This document shows, one piece after another, positions 13,951-19,937 of a stretch of 64,000 nt of DNA. A program made the position numbers and the translations under genes. This DNA is from Lysobacter sp. yr284. Its GTDB lineage: Bacteria > Pseudomonadota > Gammaproteobacteria > Xanthomonadales > Xanthomonadaceae. The first letter of the stretch is position 1. Each line of letters opens with the position of its first letter. The notes under the pieces were generated by a model, which was given only the letters and a program-made list of their open reading frames with translations, was not told the origin of the DNA and did not search any database. The stretch is taken from positions 868,001-932,000 of the forward strand of contig NZ_FNPT01000001.1 in assembly GCF_900107375.1 (NCBI RefSeq). The letters are read 5' to 3'.

Positions 13951-15252
13951 ATGTCCTGCTCAGGCGCCGATGCGCTTCCCGCCGCCCTCGCCGCCCTGCC
14001 CGCCGCGCCGGTGTGCGTGGGCTACAGCGGCGGCCTGGATTCGAGCGCGCTGCTGCATGCGCTGGCGGCCTCGCCGCTGGCGCGCGCGCGCGGCCTGCGC
14101 GCCTGGCACGTGCACCACGGGCTGCATCCGCAGGCCGACGGCTGGGCCGCGCATTGCGCCGAAGTCTGCGCCGGCTACGGCCTGGAACTGACCGTTTCGC
14201 GGGTATCGGTTGCGCGCGACAGCGGCGACGGCCCCGAGGCCGCGGCGCGCGCCGCGCGCCATGCCGCGTTCGCCGCCGGCCTGGGCGAAGGCGAGGCGCT
14301 GGCGCTGGCGCACCACCGCGACGACCAGGCCGAGACCGTGCTGCTGCGCCTGCTGCGCGGCTCCGGCCCGGACGGCCTGGCGGCGATGCGCGAATGGCGC
14401 GAGTGCGGCCGCGGGCGCCTGTGGCGGCCGCTGCTGGCGCTGCCGCGCGCGGCGCTGGAGGCCTACGCGCAGCGCCACGGCCTGCGCTGGATCGACGACC
14501 CCAGCAACGCCGAGGACCGCTACGACCGCAACTTCCTGCGCCAACGCGTGCTGCCGCTGCTGCGCGAACGCTGGCCGCAGGCGCCGGCGGCGCTGGCGCA
14601 ATCGGCGCGCCTGCAGGACGACGCCGCCGGCCTGCTCGAACAGGGCGACGCGCTGGCCCTGGCCCAGGCGCGCAGCCTCGACCCGCACGCGCTCTCGCGC
14701 AGCGCCCTGCGCGCGCTGGCGCCGGCGCGGCGCGCGCGCGTGCTGCGGCGCTGGATCGCCGCGCTGGCGCTGCCGCCGCTGCCGGCGCAGGGCGTGGCCC
14801 GGATCGAAACCGAGCTGCTGTACGCGCGCGCCGACGCCGACGCCGAATTCGCCTGGAACGGCGCCCGCGTGCGCGCCTGGCGCGACCTGCTGCACGCGGC
14901 GCCGCAACGCCCGCCGCTGCCGCCGGACTGGCGCGCCGACTGGGACGGCGCCGCGCCGCTGGCGCTGCCGGGCGGCGGTCGCTGGCGCCTGCACGGAACC
15001 GACCGCTTCGACGCCGCCCTGCGCGCGCACCCGCGCAGCGGCGGCGAACGCATCGCCCTGCCCGGCCGCGCTCATCGCCACAGCCTCAAACATGCGCTGC
15101 AAGCGCTCGGCGTACCGCCGTGGGAACGCGAACGCCTGCCGCTGCTGAGCGCGGCCGACGGCGAACTGCTGGCCGCGGGCGACCTGTTGTACTCCGCACG
15201 CCTGCAGGCTTGGCTGCGCGAACGCGCGGCGCGGCTGGAGTGGGAACCGTAG
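13951..15252 (+). CDS. tilS: tRNA(Ile)-lysidine synthase TilS
   Basis: Modifies C34 of the minor CAU-anticodon tRNA-Ile to lysidine using ATP and Lys, allowing AUA decoding. The N-type PP-loop SGGLDS (residues 26-31) is intact; WHVHHGLHPQADGW, ALAHHRDDQAETVLLRLLRGSG and RNFLRQRVLPLL are family blocks. C-terminal TilS domain follows (GERIALPGRAHRHSLKHALQALGVPPWERERLPLL, by pattern). 433 aa from ATG 13951; an in-frame start at 13918 is upstream but adds non-conserved residues. In related genomes it often follows accA; here it is separated by three other genes. Confidence 0.95.
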   Translation: MSCSGADALPAALAALPAAPVCVGYSGGLDSSALLHALAASPLARARGLRAWHVHHGLHPQADGWAAHCAEVCAGYGLELTVSRVSVARDSGDGPEAAARAARHAAFAAGLGEGEALALAHHRDDQAETVLLRLLRGSGPDGLAAMREWRECGRGRLWRPLLALPRAALEAYAQRHGLRWIDDPSNAEDRYDRNFLRQRVLPLLRERWPQAPAALAQSARLQDDAAGLLEQGDALALAQARSLDPHALSRSALRALAPARRARVLRRWIAALALPPLPAQGVARIETELLYARADADAEFAWNGARVRAWRDLLHAAPQRPPLPPDWRADWDGAAPLALPGGGRWRLHGTDRFDAALRAHPRSGGERIALPGRAHRHSLKHALQALGVPPWERERLPLLSAADGELLAAGDLLYSARLQAWLRERAARLEWEP

Positions 15253-15269
15253 CCGTCGCCGCAGCGGCC

Positions 15270-15743
15270 GATTCGCAGTCGCGGCTCGCGCTGCTCCTAC
15301 AAGGCCAGCCCGAAGCTTCGCGACCTCCCTGTAGGAGCGGCGCAAGCCGCGACCGCGCCACCGCAACGCCCGGCGAAACCCTCCAGCACGACGCCATCGG
15401 CAAGCCGAAACCGCCGCAGCAACTGCCGATTCGCAGTCGCGGCTCGCGCCGCTCCTACAAGGCCAGCCCGAAGCTTCGCGACCTCCCTGTAGGAGCGGCG
15501 CAAGCCGCGACCGCGCCACCGCAACGCCCGGCGAGCCCCTCCAGTACGACGCCATCGCCAAGCCGAAACCGCCGCAGCAACTGCCGATTCGCAGTCGCGG
15601 CTCGCGCCGCCCCTACAAGGCCAGCCCGAAGCCCTGCGACCTCCCTGTAGGAGCGGCGCAAGCCGCGACCGCGCCACCGCAACGCCCGGCGAAACCCGCC
15701 TATGCGACGTCATCGCCAAGCCGAAACCGCCGCAGCGGCCACC
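15270..15743. repeat. Three tandem 158-bp repeats, each with an inverted pair of type-A REPs
   Basis: GATTCGCAGTCGCGGCTCGC recurs at 15270, 15428 and 15586, and a decayed fourth start (GATTCGCGCCCG) at 15744, an exact period of 158 nt each time. Each unit has an inverted REP (GTCGCGGCTCGCGCCGCTCC + TAC), about 27 nt of spacer, then a forward REP (TGTAGGAGCGGCGCAAGCCG + CGACC), then a unique tail (CCACCGCAACGCCCGGCGA...). Copies differ at only a few bases. It fills most of the 635-nt gap between tilS and xseB. Confidence 0.93.
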
Positions 15744-15887
15744 GATTCGCGCCCGCACCTCGCACCGTTCCCGCAAAGCCACCGCGCAACCGCGCGGCCC
15801 CCGCCACAACGCGCCTGCGACCTGCCGCCGCAGCCTCTTCACCCCGCGCGCATTGACCCCGTCCGCCCCCCGGCTCACACTTTCCCC

Positions 15888-16163
15888 ATGCCCCGCAAAA
15901 CCACTATCGAAGCCTCGCCGGTCGCCGATTTCGAGCAGTCGCTGGATGCGCTCGAGCAACTGGTCGAGAAGATGGAACACGGCGAGATGAGCCTGGAAGA
16001 GTCGCTGGCCGCCTACGAGCGCGGCGTCGGCCTGTACCGCCGCTGCCAGAGCGCGCTGGAGCAGGCCGAGCTGCGCGTGCGCCTGCTGACCGATCCGCAG
16101 GAGCCGGCCAGCGCCGAGCCGTTCGGCAACGCCGGCCCGCCGGGCAGCGATGTCGATGCCTGA
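15888..16163 (+). CDS. xseB: Exodeoxyribonuclease VII small subunit
   Basis: XseB is the small, multi-copy helical subunit of exonuclease VII, which degrades single-stranded DNA from both ends. The 91-aa product has the full family signature: [40 protein letters not shown] and [12 protein letters not shown]. The C-terminal tail (Glu/Pro/Gly) is variable. The start at 15888 gives [17 protein letters not shown], typical in length. It overlaps the next gene by 14 nt, so xseB-ispA is a tight pair, as in E. coli. Confidence 0.95.
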
Positions 16164-17097
16164 GCCGCGCGCCGCCGGGTCCGCGCCCGGCGCGGACGCC
16201 GCGACCGATCCGCGCGCGCTCGATGCCGTCCTCGGCCGCTGGCGCGAACGCGCCGACGCCGCGCTGGCGCGGGTCCTGCCCGACAGCGAGGCCGAGCCGC
16301 GCCGCCTGCACCAGGCCATGCGCCACGCCGTGCTGCTCGGCGGCAAGCGCATGCGGCCGCTGCTGGTCTACGCCAGCGGCGCCTTGTTCGAAGTCGCGCC
16401 GATCGCGCTCGACGCGCCGGCCGCCGCGGTCGAGCTGATCCACGCCTATTCGCTGGTCCACGACGACCTGCCGGCGATGGACGACGACGCCCTGCGCCGC
16501 GGCCAGCCGACCGTGCACGTGGCCTTCGACGAAGCCACCGCGATCCTCGCCGGCGACGCGCTGCAATCGCTGGCCTTCGCCACCCTCGCCGACACCGACG
16601 TCGCCGACGCGATCCGCGTCGACCTGCTGCGCAGCCTGGCCCAGGCCGCGGGCGTGGCCGGCATGTGCGGCGGCCAGGCGCTGGACATCGACGCCACCGG
16701 CGCCGGCGTGCAGCTGTCCCTGGACGCGCTGGAACGCCTGCATTCGCTCAAGACCGGCGCGCTGATCCGCGCCAGCGTGCGCATGGGCGCGCTGTGCGGC
16801 GGCGCCGACGCCGCCGCGCTGGCGGCCCTGGACCGCTACGCGCACGCGCTCGGCCTGGCCTTCCAGGTGCGCGACGACATCCTCGACATCGAAGGCGACA
16901 GCCAGACCCTGGGCAAGACCGCCGGCAAGGACCTGGCCCAGGACAAGTCGACCTTCCCCGCGCTGATCGGCCTGGACGCCTCGCGCGCGCGCCTGGACGA
17001 ACTGGCCGCGTCGATGCGCGAAGCGCTGGAGCCGTTCGGCCCGCGCGCGGCCGCGCTGCACGCACTCGGGCGGCTGGCGATCGAACGCGATCGCTGA
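16150..17097 (+). CDS. ispA: (2E,6E)-farnesyl diphosphate synthase
   Basis: Prenyl transferase that condenses DMAPP/GPP with IPP to give FPP for quinones and undecaprenyl phosphate. The first Asp-rich motif DDLPAMDDD starts at residue 105 with the SLVHDDLP lead, and the second, DDILDIEGD, starts at about 242; [14 protein letters not shown] is the conserved IPP-binding block. At 315 aa it is slightly longer than E. coli IspA because of an Ala/Pro-rich N-terminus of about 20 aa. ATG 16150 lies inside xseB; a later ATG at 16156 (MPEPRAAG) is also possible. dxs, often the next gene, is not here. Confidence 0.96.
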
Positions 17098-17127: not shown

Positions 17128-17149
17128 GGCGGGCTTCGGCCCGCCTTTT
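17128..17149 (+). terminator. Rho-independent terminator after ispA
   Basis: GGCGGGC (17128-17134), loop TTCG, GCCCGCC (17139-17145), then TTTT. About 30 nt after the ispA stop. Confidence 0.85.
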
Positions 17150-17375: not shown

Positions 17376-19514
17376 ATGAAGCGCCTACTTCCGTTCGCCG
17401 TCGCGCTGTGGCTCGGCGCCGCGCTTTTCCCGGCCCAAGCGGCGCCGCCGAGCCAAGACGACCTGCGCGCCAATCCCGACGCGCTGCCGATGCAATCGGT
17501 ATGGCAGCTGCGGCCGGTGGATCCGCAGGCGCCGCCGTGGCAGGACGTGTTCGCCTTCAGCCTGGGCATGGCGCCCGAGCAGATGGCGCGGTCGCGCTGG
17601 TTGGGCCTGAATACCGGCGCGGACAGCGAGCGTTCGCCGGCGCTGTTCGACGCGCTGGACGGCCGCGCGGTGTTCCTCTCGCCCGCGGCCCGCGGCTTCT
17701 GCGACGGCCGCTGGCGGGTCGTGCGGCTGGAGCGGATCGACCTCGACGATTCGCTGCAGCCTTCGCTCAAGCTGTGGTTGGTCGAGCGCGCGCCCGATGG
17801 CGCCCAGCGCACCGCGCTCGGCTACGGACGCGTCGACGAACAGGGCCGATGGACCGTGCCGCCCAAGACCTGCGCCGGCGAAGACAGCGCCCTCGCCGCA
17901 TCGTCCGCGGCCCTGCCCGCGCCGATGCCGGGCGAACCCGCGCCGCCCGCATCCGGCCTGCGCGTGGACACGGTGGCCGGACAGCCCGGCTTGCGCGACG
18001 CGCAGGGCCGCTGGCGCAGCCCCGCGCCGTTGCGCGACATCGCCACCGCGCAGTGGCTGCGCAGCCGGCAAGCGCCGGTGGCTGCCAGCGCGACCGCCCT
18101 GGGCCTCATCGACGGCCGCGGGCGCACGGTGATCCCGTTCGTGTTCGAGCAACTGGCCGATGCGGCCACGCCGCGCCGCATCCGCCTGTGCACCGCCGCC
18201 GGCCAGGATCCGCAACTCGATGCCGCCACGCCGCGCGTCTGCGGCTGGCAACGCCTGCGCGGCGGCAAGGCCGCGGCCCTGCGTCCCGTCCAGGACCCGG
18301 GCACCGGCCGATGGGGCTACCAGGACGCCCGCGGGCGTTGGGCGATCGCGCCGCAGTTCCGGCAGGCGCGCGCCTTCCGCCATGGCTATGCGGTGGTCGC
18401 GGGGCCGTATCCGCACGACTGGCGCCCACCCGGCTGGAACGACGAACGCCCGATCGTCCGCAAGATCCAGCGCGTGGGCCGGCACTGGGTCGCCGAAGCG
18501 ATGGTGCGCAACGCCTCCACCGGCGCCGACTGGAGCCTGCGCTACGGGCTGTTGAACGACGCCGGGCAGTGGCTCGCGCCGGTGCCGGACCACGCGCTGC
18601 ACATCGCCGTGCTGTTCCCGCCCGGAGGCCGCAGCGGTTTCTACGCGCAAATGCTGGCCGAGCACCTGCCCCGGCTGTTGGGCCGCGAGGTGCGGGTCGA
18701 CTACATGCCCTCGGCGACCGAGGACGCCTACCGCCAACTGATGACGCAGGGCGGGAACGCCAAGGTCCTGCTGGCCGCGCTGCGGCTGCCGCGTGGCGGC
18801 ATCCAGGGCGTGCACAGCGGGCAGGCGATCGATCGGCTGATGCACGCGCTGCGTCCGGTCACCCTGCTGACCTCCGAGCCGCTGGTGCTGGCCATCGACA
18901 GCGCCAAGGCCGATGCGCTGGGCATCCACGACACCCAAGGCCTGCTCGCCTATGCGCGCGCGCATCCCGGCGCGCTGCGCATCGCCACCGGCGACGACGG
19001 CTGGACCGGGCACCTCGCCTTCGGCCAGTTCCGCGCGCTGAGCGGCGTGGACGTGCAGCGGGTGATCATCGCCGGCATGTATCCGCCCTCGGACATCGTC
19101 ACCCAGGCGCATGCGGCGGAATTGCTGTTCGCCCCGGTGAACGGCGTGGCGGTGGCGGTGCGGCGCGGCCAGTTGCGGGTGATCGGGACCGCCGCCGAGC
19201 CGGCGCATCCGCAGGTCTTCGACGGCGCGAGCTGGCCGACGCTGGCGTCGAGCGCGCCGCTGGCGGACTTCACCGCCTACGACCGCTTCAGCCTGTGGGC
19301 GCCCGCAAATTCGGACGCGGCGTCCGAGCGCAGGCTGCAGCAGGCCGTGGCCCAGGTCCTGGCGCTGCCGTCGGTGCAAAAACAGTTGCAGGACCTGCAA
19401 GTGGTCGCCGGCGGCGGTTCGCCCGACGCCTTGCTGGCGCTGGAACACGAAGAACGCCAGCGCTGGGAACGCGCGATTTCGGTCCCGGCTTCCGAATCGC
19501 CGCCGACGCCATGA
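17376..19514 (+). CDS. Secreted WG-repeat protein fused to a Bug/TctC-type receptor domain
   Basis: A 712-aa exported protein. A Sec signal peptide (MKRLLPFAVALWLGAALFPA, cleavage after AQA near residue 22) is followed by about 220 residues of unknown type, then WG-like repeats: GLIDGRGRTVIPFVFEQLAD (about 243-262) and WGYQDARGRWAIAPQFRQAR (about 310-330). Residues about 408-712 match the Bug (tripartite tricarboxylate receptor) fold: an FPPGGRSGFYAQMLAEHL start, PVTLLTSEPLVLAIDSAKAD, LLAYARAHPGALRIATGDDG, a WPTLAS block, and an E..RW end. No TctA/TctB transporter is nearby. AGGAGG lies 12 nt before ATG 17376. Role unknown; possibly a ligand sensor. Confidence 0.82.
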   Translation: MKRLLPFAVALWLGAALFPAQAAPPSQDDLRANPDALPMQSVWQLRPVDPQAPPWQDVFAFSLGMAPEQMARSRWLGLNTGADSERSPALFDALDGRAVFLSPAARGFCDGRWRVVRLERIDLDDSLQPSLKLWLVERAPDGAQRTALGYGRVDEQGRWTVPPKTCAGEDSALAASSAALPAPMPGEPAPPASGLRVDTVAGQPGLRDAQGRWRSPAPLRDIATAQWLRSRQAPVAASATALGLIDGRGRTVIPFVFEQLADAATPRRIRLCTAAGQDPQLDAATPRVCGWQRLRGGKAAALRPVQDPGTGRWGYQDARGRWAIAPQFRQARAFRHGYAVVAGPYPHDWRPPGWNDERPIVRKIQRVGRHWVAEAMVRNASTGADWSLRYGLLNDAGQWLAPVPDHALHIAVLFPPGGRSGFYAQMLAEHLPRLLGREVRVDYMPSATEDAYRQLMTQGGNAKVLLAALRLPRGGIQGVHSGQAIDRLMHALRPVTLLTSEPLVLAIDSAKADALGIHDTQGLLAYARAHPGALRIATGDDGWTGHLAFGQFRALSGVDVQRVIIAGMYPPSDIVTQAHAAELLFAPVNGVAVAVRRGQLRVIGTAAEPAHPQVFDGASWPTLASSAPLADFTAYDRFSLWAPANSDAASERRLQQAVAQVLALPSVQKQLQDLQVVAGGGSPDALLALEHEERQRWERAISVPASESPPTP

Positions 19515-19535: not shown

Positions 19536-19559
19536 AAAGGCGGGCCGAAGCCCGCCTTT
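19536..19559. terminator. Bidirectional terminator between convergent genes
   Basis: AAAGGCGGGC (19536-19545), loop CGAA, GCCCGCCTTT (19550-19559). A-run on one side and T-run on the other suit both the WG-Bug gene (+) and the DUF4870 gene (-). Confidence 0.9.
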
Positions 19560-19589: not shown

Positions 19590-19937
19590 TTACTTCACCA
19601 GACGCAGGGTGAAGGGGTAGCGGTAGGCCTCGCCCTTGTTGGCGGCCAGCGCGGCCATGATGGTCAGCACCAGCCAGGCCAGGCCGACGGCGATCATCAC
19701 CAGCACGCCGATCAGCACCAGGGTCAGGATGCCGCCGATGATCATGCCGATGATCACGGTGATGTTGAAGTTCAGCGCTTCCTTGCCCTGGTCGGCGACG
19801 AAGGGCATGGTGTCCTTCTTCATCAGCCACACCACCAGCGGGCCGAGCAGGGTGCCGAAGGGAACGATCAAACCGACCAGCGTGCTCAGATGAGCCAGCA
19901 TGCCCCAAGTCTTTTCGTCCTGACTGATATCGTTCAT
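19590..19937 (-). CDS. DUF4870 domain small membrane protein
   Basis: A 115-aa integral membrane protein. The N-terminus DEKTWGMLAHLSTLVGLIVP, then LLGPLVVWLMKKD, FVADQGKEALNFNITVIIG and the C-terminal GEAYRYPFTLRLVK, are characteristic of DUF4870, a four-helix membrane family of unknown function. ATG 19937 is preceded by AGGGGAAG on the - strand. It ends at a shared terminator with the convergent WG-Bug gene. Family assignment is confident; function is not known. Confidence 0.93.
   Translation of the reverse strand: MNDISQDEKTWGMLAHLSTLVGLIVPFGTLLGPLVVWLMKKDTMPFVADQGKEALNFNITVIIGMIIGGILTLVLIGVLVMIAVGLAWLVLTIMAALAANKGEAYRYPFTLRLVK

Follow-up and report, generated by a model that had tools for sequence, protein, structure and literature searches.

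Within the 64 kb stretch of Lysobacter sp. yr284 DNA analyzed here (the window), a single open frame encodes a protein in which a region of WG repeats precedes a domain of the Bug/TctC type (WG-Bug, Table 1). The gene is the only match to this protein in its own genome. Upstream lie matches to tilS, xseB and ispA and downstream matches to DUF4870, DUF1501, DUF1800 and PmbA/TldD, and no transporter or kinase was found among the ten window neighbors that we scanned. The hairpin GGCGGGC-TTCG-GCCCGCC occurs exactly twice in the window, in inverted orientation on either side of WG-Bug, and not at all in shuffled sequences. The same arrangement flanks the gene in a second Lysobacter genome (G208). 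A terminator scan of the region listed two sites against 1.0 in shuffles, which is not clearly above chance. With these surroundings, WG-Bug in the window looks like a single-gene unit. By base composition the gene does not stand out as foreign, its GC3 (0.904) lying within the range of seven window genes (0.884–0.967). Farther upstream, positions 15247–15802 hold three direct copies of a repeat with 158-base spacing. The copies overlap both the end of tilS and the region preceding xseB; relative to the 240-nt reference copy, the other two are 94% and 83% identical.

Table 1. Features of the WG-Bug locus in window coordinates
Feature	Position	Strand	Basis
Polyprenyl synthetase family (ispA), upstream neighbor	16150..17097	+	family match
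Terminator-like hairpin, then TTTT, between ispA and WG-Bug	17128..17145	+	terminator scan
WG-Bug fusion gene	17376..19514	+	open frame, 712 residues plus stop
Probable Sec signal peptide, residues 1–23	17376..17444	+	by eye
N-terminal segment, residues 24–107	17445..17696	+	retained in WG-less relative G173
WG-repeat region, residues 108–405	17697..18590	+	missing from G173
WG-like core 1, residues 151–162	17826..17861	+	pattern match
WG-like core 2, residues 205–216	17988..18023	+	pattern match
WG-like core 3, residues 243–254	18102..18137	+	pattern match
WG-like core 4, residues 314–326	18315..18353	+	pattern match; within best Pfam stretch
WG-like core 5, residues 391–402	18546..18581	+	pattern match
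Bug/TctC-like domain, residues 406–702	18591..19481	+	Pfam, PDB sequence alignment
Second hairpin, inverted relative to that at 17128..17145, between WG-Bug and DUF4870	19539..19556	.	not listed by terminator scan
DUF4870, convergent downstream neighbor	19590..19937	-	family match

Both Pfam profiles score above their cut-offs in the one 712-residue frame, as the initial annotation had proposed: PF14903 (WG_beta_rep) with 40.4 bits (cut-off 25.6, best stretch 313–341) and PF03401 (TctC) with 33.9 bits (cut-off 27, stretch 489–701). Two outcomes had been named beforehand as refuting the fusion, the lack of a PF03401 match and a WG stretch outside WG profiles; neither occurred. The repeats had been placed at about residues 243–330; they are present but extend farther, with five cores spread over residues 151–402. 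The Bug domain is likewise present, with its bounds corrected from 408–712 to 406–702. The predicted signal peptide agrees with the start of the protein, which by eye resembles a Sec signal peptide, and similar starts are seen by eye in the remaining full-length members. Residues 1–130 gave no Pfam match at E 0.01, and an NCBIfam scan of the whole protein found nothing even at E up to 10. Searches of an open-access library brought to light no description of a WG-Bug fusion, in line with the earlier claim that it is undescribed; one article (PMC8767351) contains both WG and Bug terms, in passages that treat them apart. WG-Bug is a new architecture built of known parts.

Distribution and descent of the fusion

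Counting each sequence once, we obtained 17 full-length members (3 Lysobacter, 5 Variovorax and 9 Comamonas by genus group), and the order of the parts is kept in all 17. Sampled genomes (G numbers) carry the genus name of the named genome in their group. In the window's genus group 4 of 20 genomes match at 1e-5, three at full length and one (G173) in two pieces. A family sample returned 2 of 198 genomes at 1e-20, both of the window's genus, and a class sample returned the window's own genome (1/369 at 1e-30). A contig scan confined to close relatives gave four loci, in Variovorax sp. KBW07, V. boronicumulans, Comamonas odontotermitis and L. enzymogenes. The genus group of V. boronicumulans contains 7 matches in 101 genomes at 1e-30 (3 full length, 4 mainly to the Bug part) and that of C. 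odontotermitis 9 in 53, all spanning residues 1–15 to 700–706; the family sample around V. boronicumulans, with two candidates scored per genome, contains 2 in 399. Five plasmid records have a match, two of them full length. The copy on the V. paradoxus VAI-C record (2.48 Mb) is annotated as "WG repeat-containing protein" and that on the V. boronicumulans EBFNA2 record (938 kb) as "tripartite tricarboxylate transporter substrate-binding protein", each annotation naming one half of the fusion. A candidate second fusion (L013) was rejected as an ordinary Bug gene with an open frame in front.

DUF4870 occurs in 14 of the 20 genus genomes (1e-20). In two of these (G000 and G208) WG-Bug lies between ispA and DUF4870, and in the other 12 ispA and DUF4870 are found at the locus with no fusion match (E 1e-8). 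An insertion at this site in the line of G000 and G208 is the simplest reading. The copies of L. enzymogenes ATCC 29487 (L009), whose protein is identical to that of G200, and of G173 occupy other sites. By eye, several empty sites in other Lysobacter genomes carry a single hairpin of the type described above. At the L. enzymogenes locus the opposite strand carries an alkaline phosphatase downstream of WG-Bug (L009 10738–12444).

All family members fall on a single branch (100/100) in a tree of Bug domains, for which the tree tool issued a long-branch warning; solo divergent Bugs are the neighbors of the family, and five ordinary Bugs lie apart. Nested among the comamonad copies is a clade of the three full-length Lysobacter copies (100/99), and the branches that enclose this clade are not strongly supported (93/86, 82/71). 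Judged from these sequences, WG-Bug was likely transferred from comamonads to Lysobacter. The solo divergent Bugs (L042, L043, L044 and L045, Variovorax group) are the nearest relatives met outside the family, being 32–38% identical. They have a 100/100 branch and, by eye, the GGR(S/T) start of the pincer loop in common with it, but comprise 327–349 residues as cut here and have no WG part. By eye, L042, L043 and L044 come after an apparent acyl-CoA dehydrogenase frame.

In the G173 copy (L032 7571–8836) the open frame passes from the N-terminal segment to the Bug domain, and residues 108–405 are missing. For residues 24–107, dN/dS is 0.429/0.447 against the window copy and 0.41/0.503 against G208, and this leftover segment looks nearly unconstrained. 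The corresponding values for the Bug part are 0.261/0.501 and 0.257/0.516; it looks constrained, though less so than in full-length pairs, nine of which give dN/dS ratios of 0.19–0.49 in the WG part and 0.17–0.37 in the Bug part (these pairs have members in common and so are not independent). The Bug domain of G173 agrees with six comamonad copies at 187–208 of 297 positions and with the three Lysobacter copies at 190–200 of 297, and in the tree it falls outside the full-length group (96/98 with 19 rows, 90/76 with 27 rows). We therefore dropped the idea that G173 arose by a deletion among the other Lysobacter copies; it may have lost the WG part or have lacked it from the start.

The Bug-type domain and the WG-repeat region

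PF03401 also scores above its cut-off in all six other family proteins that were scanned singly, G173 included (36.7–51.2 bits). Seven Bug or tripartite tricarboxylate transporter (TTT) receptor sequences from the PDB align with the window protein from residues 403–408 to 688–702 (E 1e-14 to 6e-4): the TphC and TBP terephthalate receptors (7ndr, 8hka, 8hk9, 8hkb), AdpC (5oei), BugE (2dvz) and Bug27 (2qpq). In the best of these alignments residues 408–702 pair with residues 24–308 of 7ndr (E 1e-14). The solved receptors are stand-alone chains of 301–334 residues, whereas WG-Bug carries the N-terminal segment and the WG region in front. The first pincer loop of TTT receptors has the signature P-F-X-A-G-G-X-X-D, as given in passages of PMC5812351 and PMC8556258. 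The GG of this loop is present in all 18 family sequences and the final Asp in one. Because the signature is complete in none of the 18, we class the domain as a divergent PF03401 domain rather than a typical TTT receptor.

We mapped the TphC pocket, with the roles of its positions taken from the relevant passages of PMC8556258, onto WG-Bug through the PDB sequence alignment, a mapping by sequence in which single positions may be off. TphC G33 and G34 correspond to the GG (18/18), T35 to R419 (18/18), P86 to P472 (18/18), Q150 to G539 (18/18), N197 to P587 (18/18) and T242 to D636 (18/18). S154 corresponds to W543 in 17 of the 18 sequences and to G in one, and D37 to G, S, A or D, with D in one sequence. 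T155, a direct ligand contact, pairs with T544 in 12 sequences and with I or V in six. WG-Bug thus differs from TphC by an Arg, a Trp and an Asp at T35, S154 and T242, in addition to the incomplete signature. Invariant positions make up 11 of 17 in the pocket against 121 of 297 over the domain in a ten-sequence set; in the larger set the excess is smaller, with 7 of 17 (18 rows) against 86 of 297 (17 rows).

These observations bear on whether WG-Bug still binds a small ligand. The retained pincer GG and the invariance of R419, P472, G539, P587 and D636 at TphC pocket positions speak for a receptor, the reading that we prefer; the variation at T544, the Gly in place of W543 in one sequence and the modest pocket excess in the larger set speak against it. 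The variable contact and the eroded signature, with its Asp in a single sequence, would also suit a Bug domain that no longer binds small ligands and instead acts within an envelope protein as a structural or protein-binding module. Five invariant pocket residues and the pocket excess in both sets argue against such a loss, which we consider somewhat unlikely.

PF14903 scores above its cut-off in all five other full-length members scanned singly (40.0–54.7 bits). In the window protein it yields two stretches at E up to 10 and one at E up to 1. Both the repeat cores and this above-cut-off match liken the N-terminal part to WG-repeat proteins. The WG core pattern matches five times in the window protein and two to five times in each of the other full-length members; shuffling residues 24–405 2000 times gave 0.0065 matches on average and one at most, a descriptive figure, since the pattern was written after the cores had been seen. 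Four cysteines of the WG part (109, 166, 272 and 289) are present in all 17 full-length proteins. A profile of residues 24–405 found nothing significant among solved structures, its one match being a ribosomal protein at E 1.6. In a search of 399 genomes with at most four candidates scored per genome, the same profile matched outside the family over 38–103 columns of the WG stretch (6/399 genomes), and the whole WG module was not seen with another partner. A DUF6093 match in two of five members stayed below its cut-off (best E 4e-4), and we regarded it as a chance hit. AlphaFold2 gave poor models (mean pLDDT 35.1 for the full protein and 38.2 for residues 24–405) that confirm neither fold. We know of no function assigned to PF14903. 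A passage of PMC8078820 counts it among repeat families that were modelled because a structure was lacking.

Candidate roles of WG-Bug

At five of the nine Comamonas loci (L066–L070) WG-Bug belongs to a co-directional block of seven genes, in the order LLM monooxygenase, alkylhydroperoxidase-domain protein, WG-Bug, acyl-CoA-dehydrogenase-like protein, ABC ATPase, binding protein and permease, as called by simple open-frame callers. The family names given to the block derive from L067, where the first two genes pass the cut-offs of TIGR04027 and TIGR04030. The ABC proteins of this locus are nearest to taurine, sulfonate and nitrate systems, and the binding protein to the SsuA family (94.3 bits, cut-off 163.5); we leave the substrate of the importer unassigned because these scores fall below the NCBIfam cut-offs. 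The last four genes of the block recur in V. paradoxus VAI-C, 50–64% identical, upstream of WG-Bug and on its strand, and in the Bug-domain tree this arrangement and the Comamonas block fall on separate branches. No terminator after WG-Bug turned up in L066–L070 in a simple scan (four-base loops, 350 bases), and L065 has a peroxidase-related gene upstream (TIGR01926). At the five Comamonas loci with the block, the neighbors point less to signaling than to the uptake and oxidation of organosulfur compounds.

On this evidence from gene order, WG-Bug could be an accessory receptor for organosulfur scavenging that binds a sulfonate, a sulfate ester or an oxidation product and aids the SsuABC-like importer or the oxidoreductases, with copies elsewhere doing the same alone. 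The block is absent within the available flanks at 12 of 18 loci, the window's included, and relatives of the binding protein occur in 46 plasmid records, of which a single one, from Variovorax, also has WG-Bug. These counts and the below-cut-off ABC scores speak against such a role. The link is suggestive without being general, and we judge an organosulfur role for the whole family unlikely. Other neighborhoods differ. In Variovorax KBW07 WG-Bug is followed, on the other strand, by a phosphonoacetaldehyde hydrolase (TIGR01422; L006 10369–11340). WG-Bug of C. odontotermitis is convergent with dxs-ispA-xseB (L008 10293–13521), likewise in L064, and the window copy follows xseB-ispA, which may be a coincidence.

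The initial annotation had noted that no TctA lies nearby; the observation holds for the whole genome, which gave no TctA match at all. Across the genus group, TctA was found above its cut-off in none of the 20 genomes and below it in six, and PF03401 matched once in each of four genomes, which are exactly the carriers of the WG-Bug family. In contrast to this single copy, the genomes of V. boronicumulans and C. odontotermitis gave 53 and 29 matches to the protein at 1e-5, and nearly all of these cover the Bug part. Because TctA is missing above cut-off and PF03401 is single-copy in the carriers, a tripartite-transporter role of WG-Bug in Lysobacter is unlikely. An ordinary TTT receptor with its membrane parts encoded elsewhere would account for the full-length homology of the Bug domain to TTT receptors, and most Bordetella Bugs likewise have no membrane partner gene nearby, according to a passage of PMC5812351. 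Given the TctA result for the window's genus group and a signature complete in none of the 18 sequences, we regard this explanation as very improbable. The same review (PMC5812351) mentions in passing a TctAB fusion, and it describes BctC of Bordetella pertussis as a TctC homologue with a role in signaling as well as transport. BctC is accompanied by BctBA and the two-component system BctDE, whereas WG-Bug has no such neighbors in the window; a kinase partner, not found among the ten window neighbors scanned, could be encoded at a distance. A read-through or assembly join of two genes, to which we give practically no credence, is ruled out by the relatives: the fusion recurs in 17 distinct sequences from three genus groups, and two of these sequences come from complete plasmid records.

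WG-Bug may have a structural, an organosulfur or a sensor role. Our preferred reading, which we hold tentatively and with a little less than even confidence, is that WG-Bug is an orphan receptor that is exported and is docked by its WG domain on an envelope partner other than TctAB. From what was computed, namely both domains in one frame, conservation in 17 proteins, altered pocket loops and, for the genus group, the lack of above-cut-off TctA and of any other PF03401 match, we infer the following model. After export, the Bug-type domain at the C terminus, which we expect to be two-lobed, would bind a small and probably anionic compound in its remodelled pocket and close on it. The WG-repeat beta domain at the N terminus, probably stabilized by disulfides, would dock the receptor on a cell-envelope partner, and this partner would read or take over the closed form. 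In Lysobacter the receptor would feed no TctAB carrier. Docking by the WG domain is not needed in all members, because G173 has an open Bug frame without the WG part. In a broader and rather doubtful version, WG-Bug would represent a new class of periplasmic receptor: a WG-repeat domain would have been joined to a divergent Bug domain in comamonads, where the fusion would be tied to organosulfur scavenging, and Lysobacter would have received it as one self-contained gene. There it would be the sole Bug protein, and its partner would be something other than TctAB.

Some bacteria have very large numbers of Bug proteins, many of them without a known carrier (PMC5812351). The WG-Bug genes form a small family that is shared by a few bacteria of soil and water. 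As a single-copy gene in Lysobacter genomes with no other PF03401 match and no above-cut-off TctA, it offers a clean setting for the role of a Bug protein without its transporter, and the natural WG-less relative in G173 would allow the function of the WG part to be tested by comparison.
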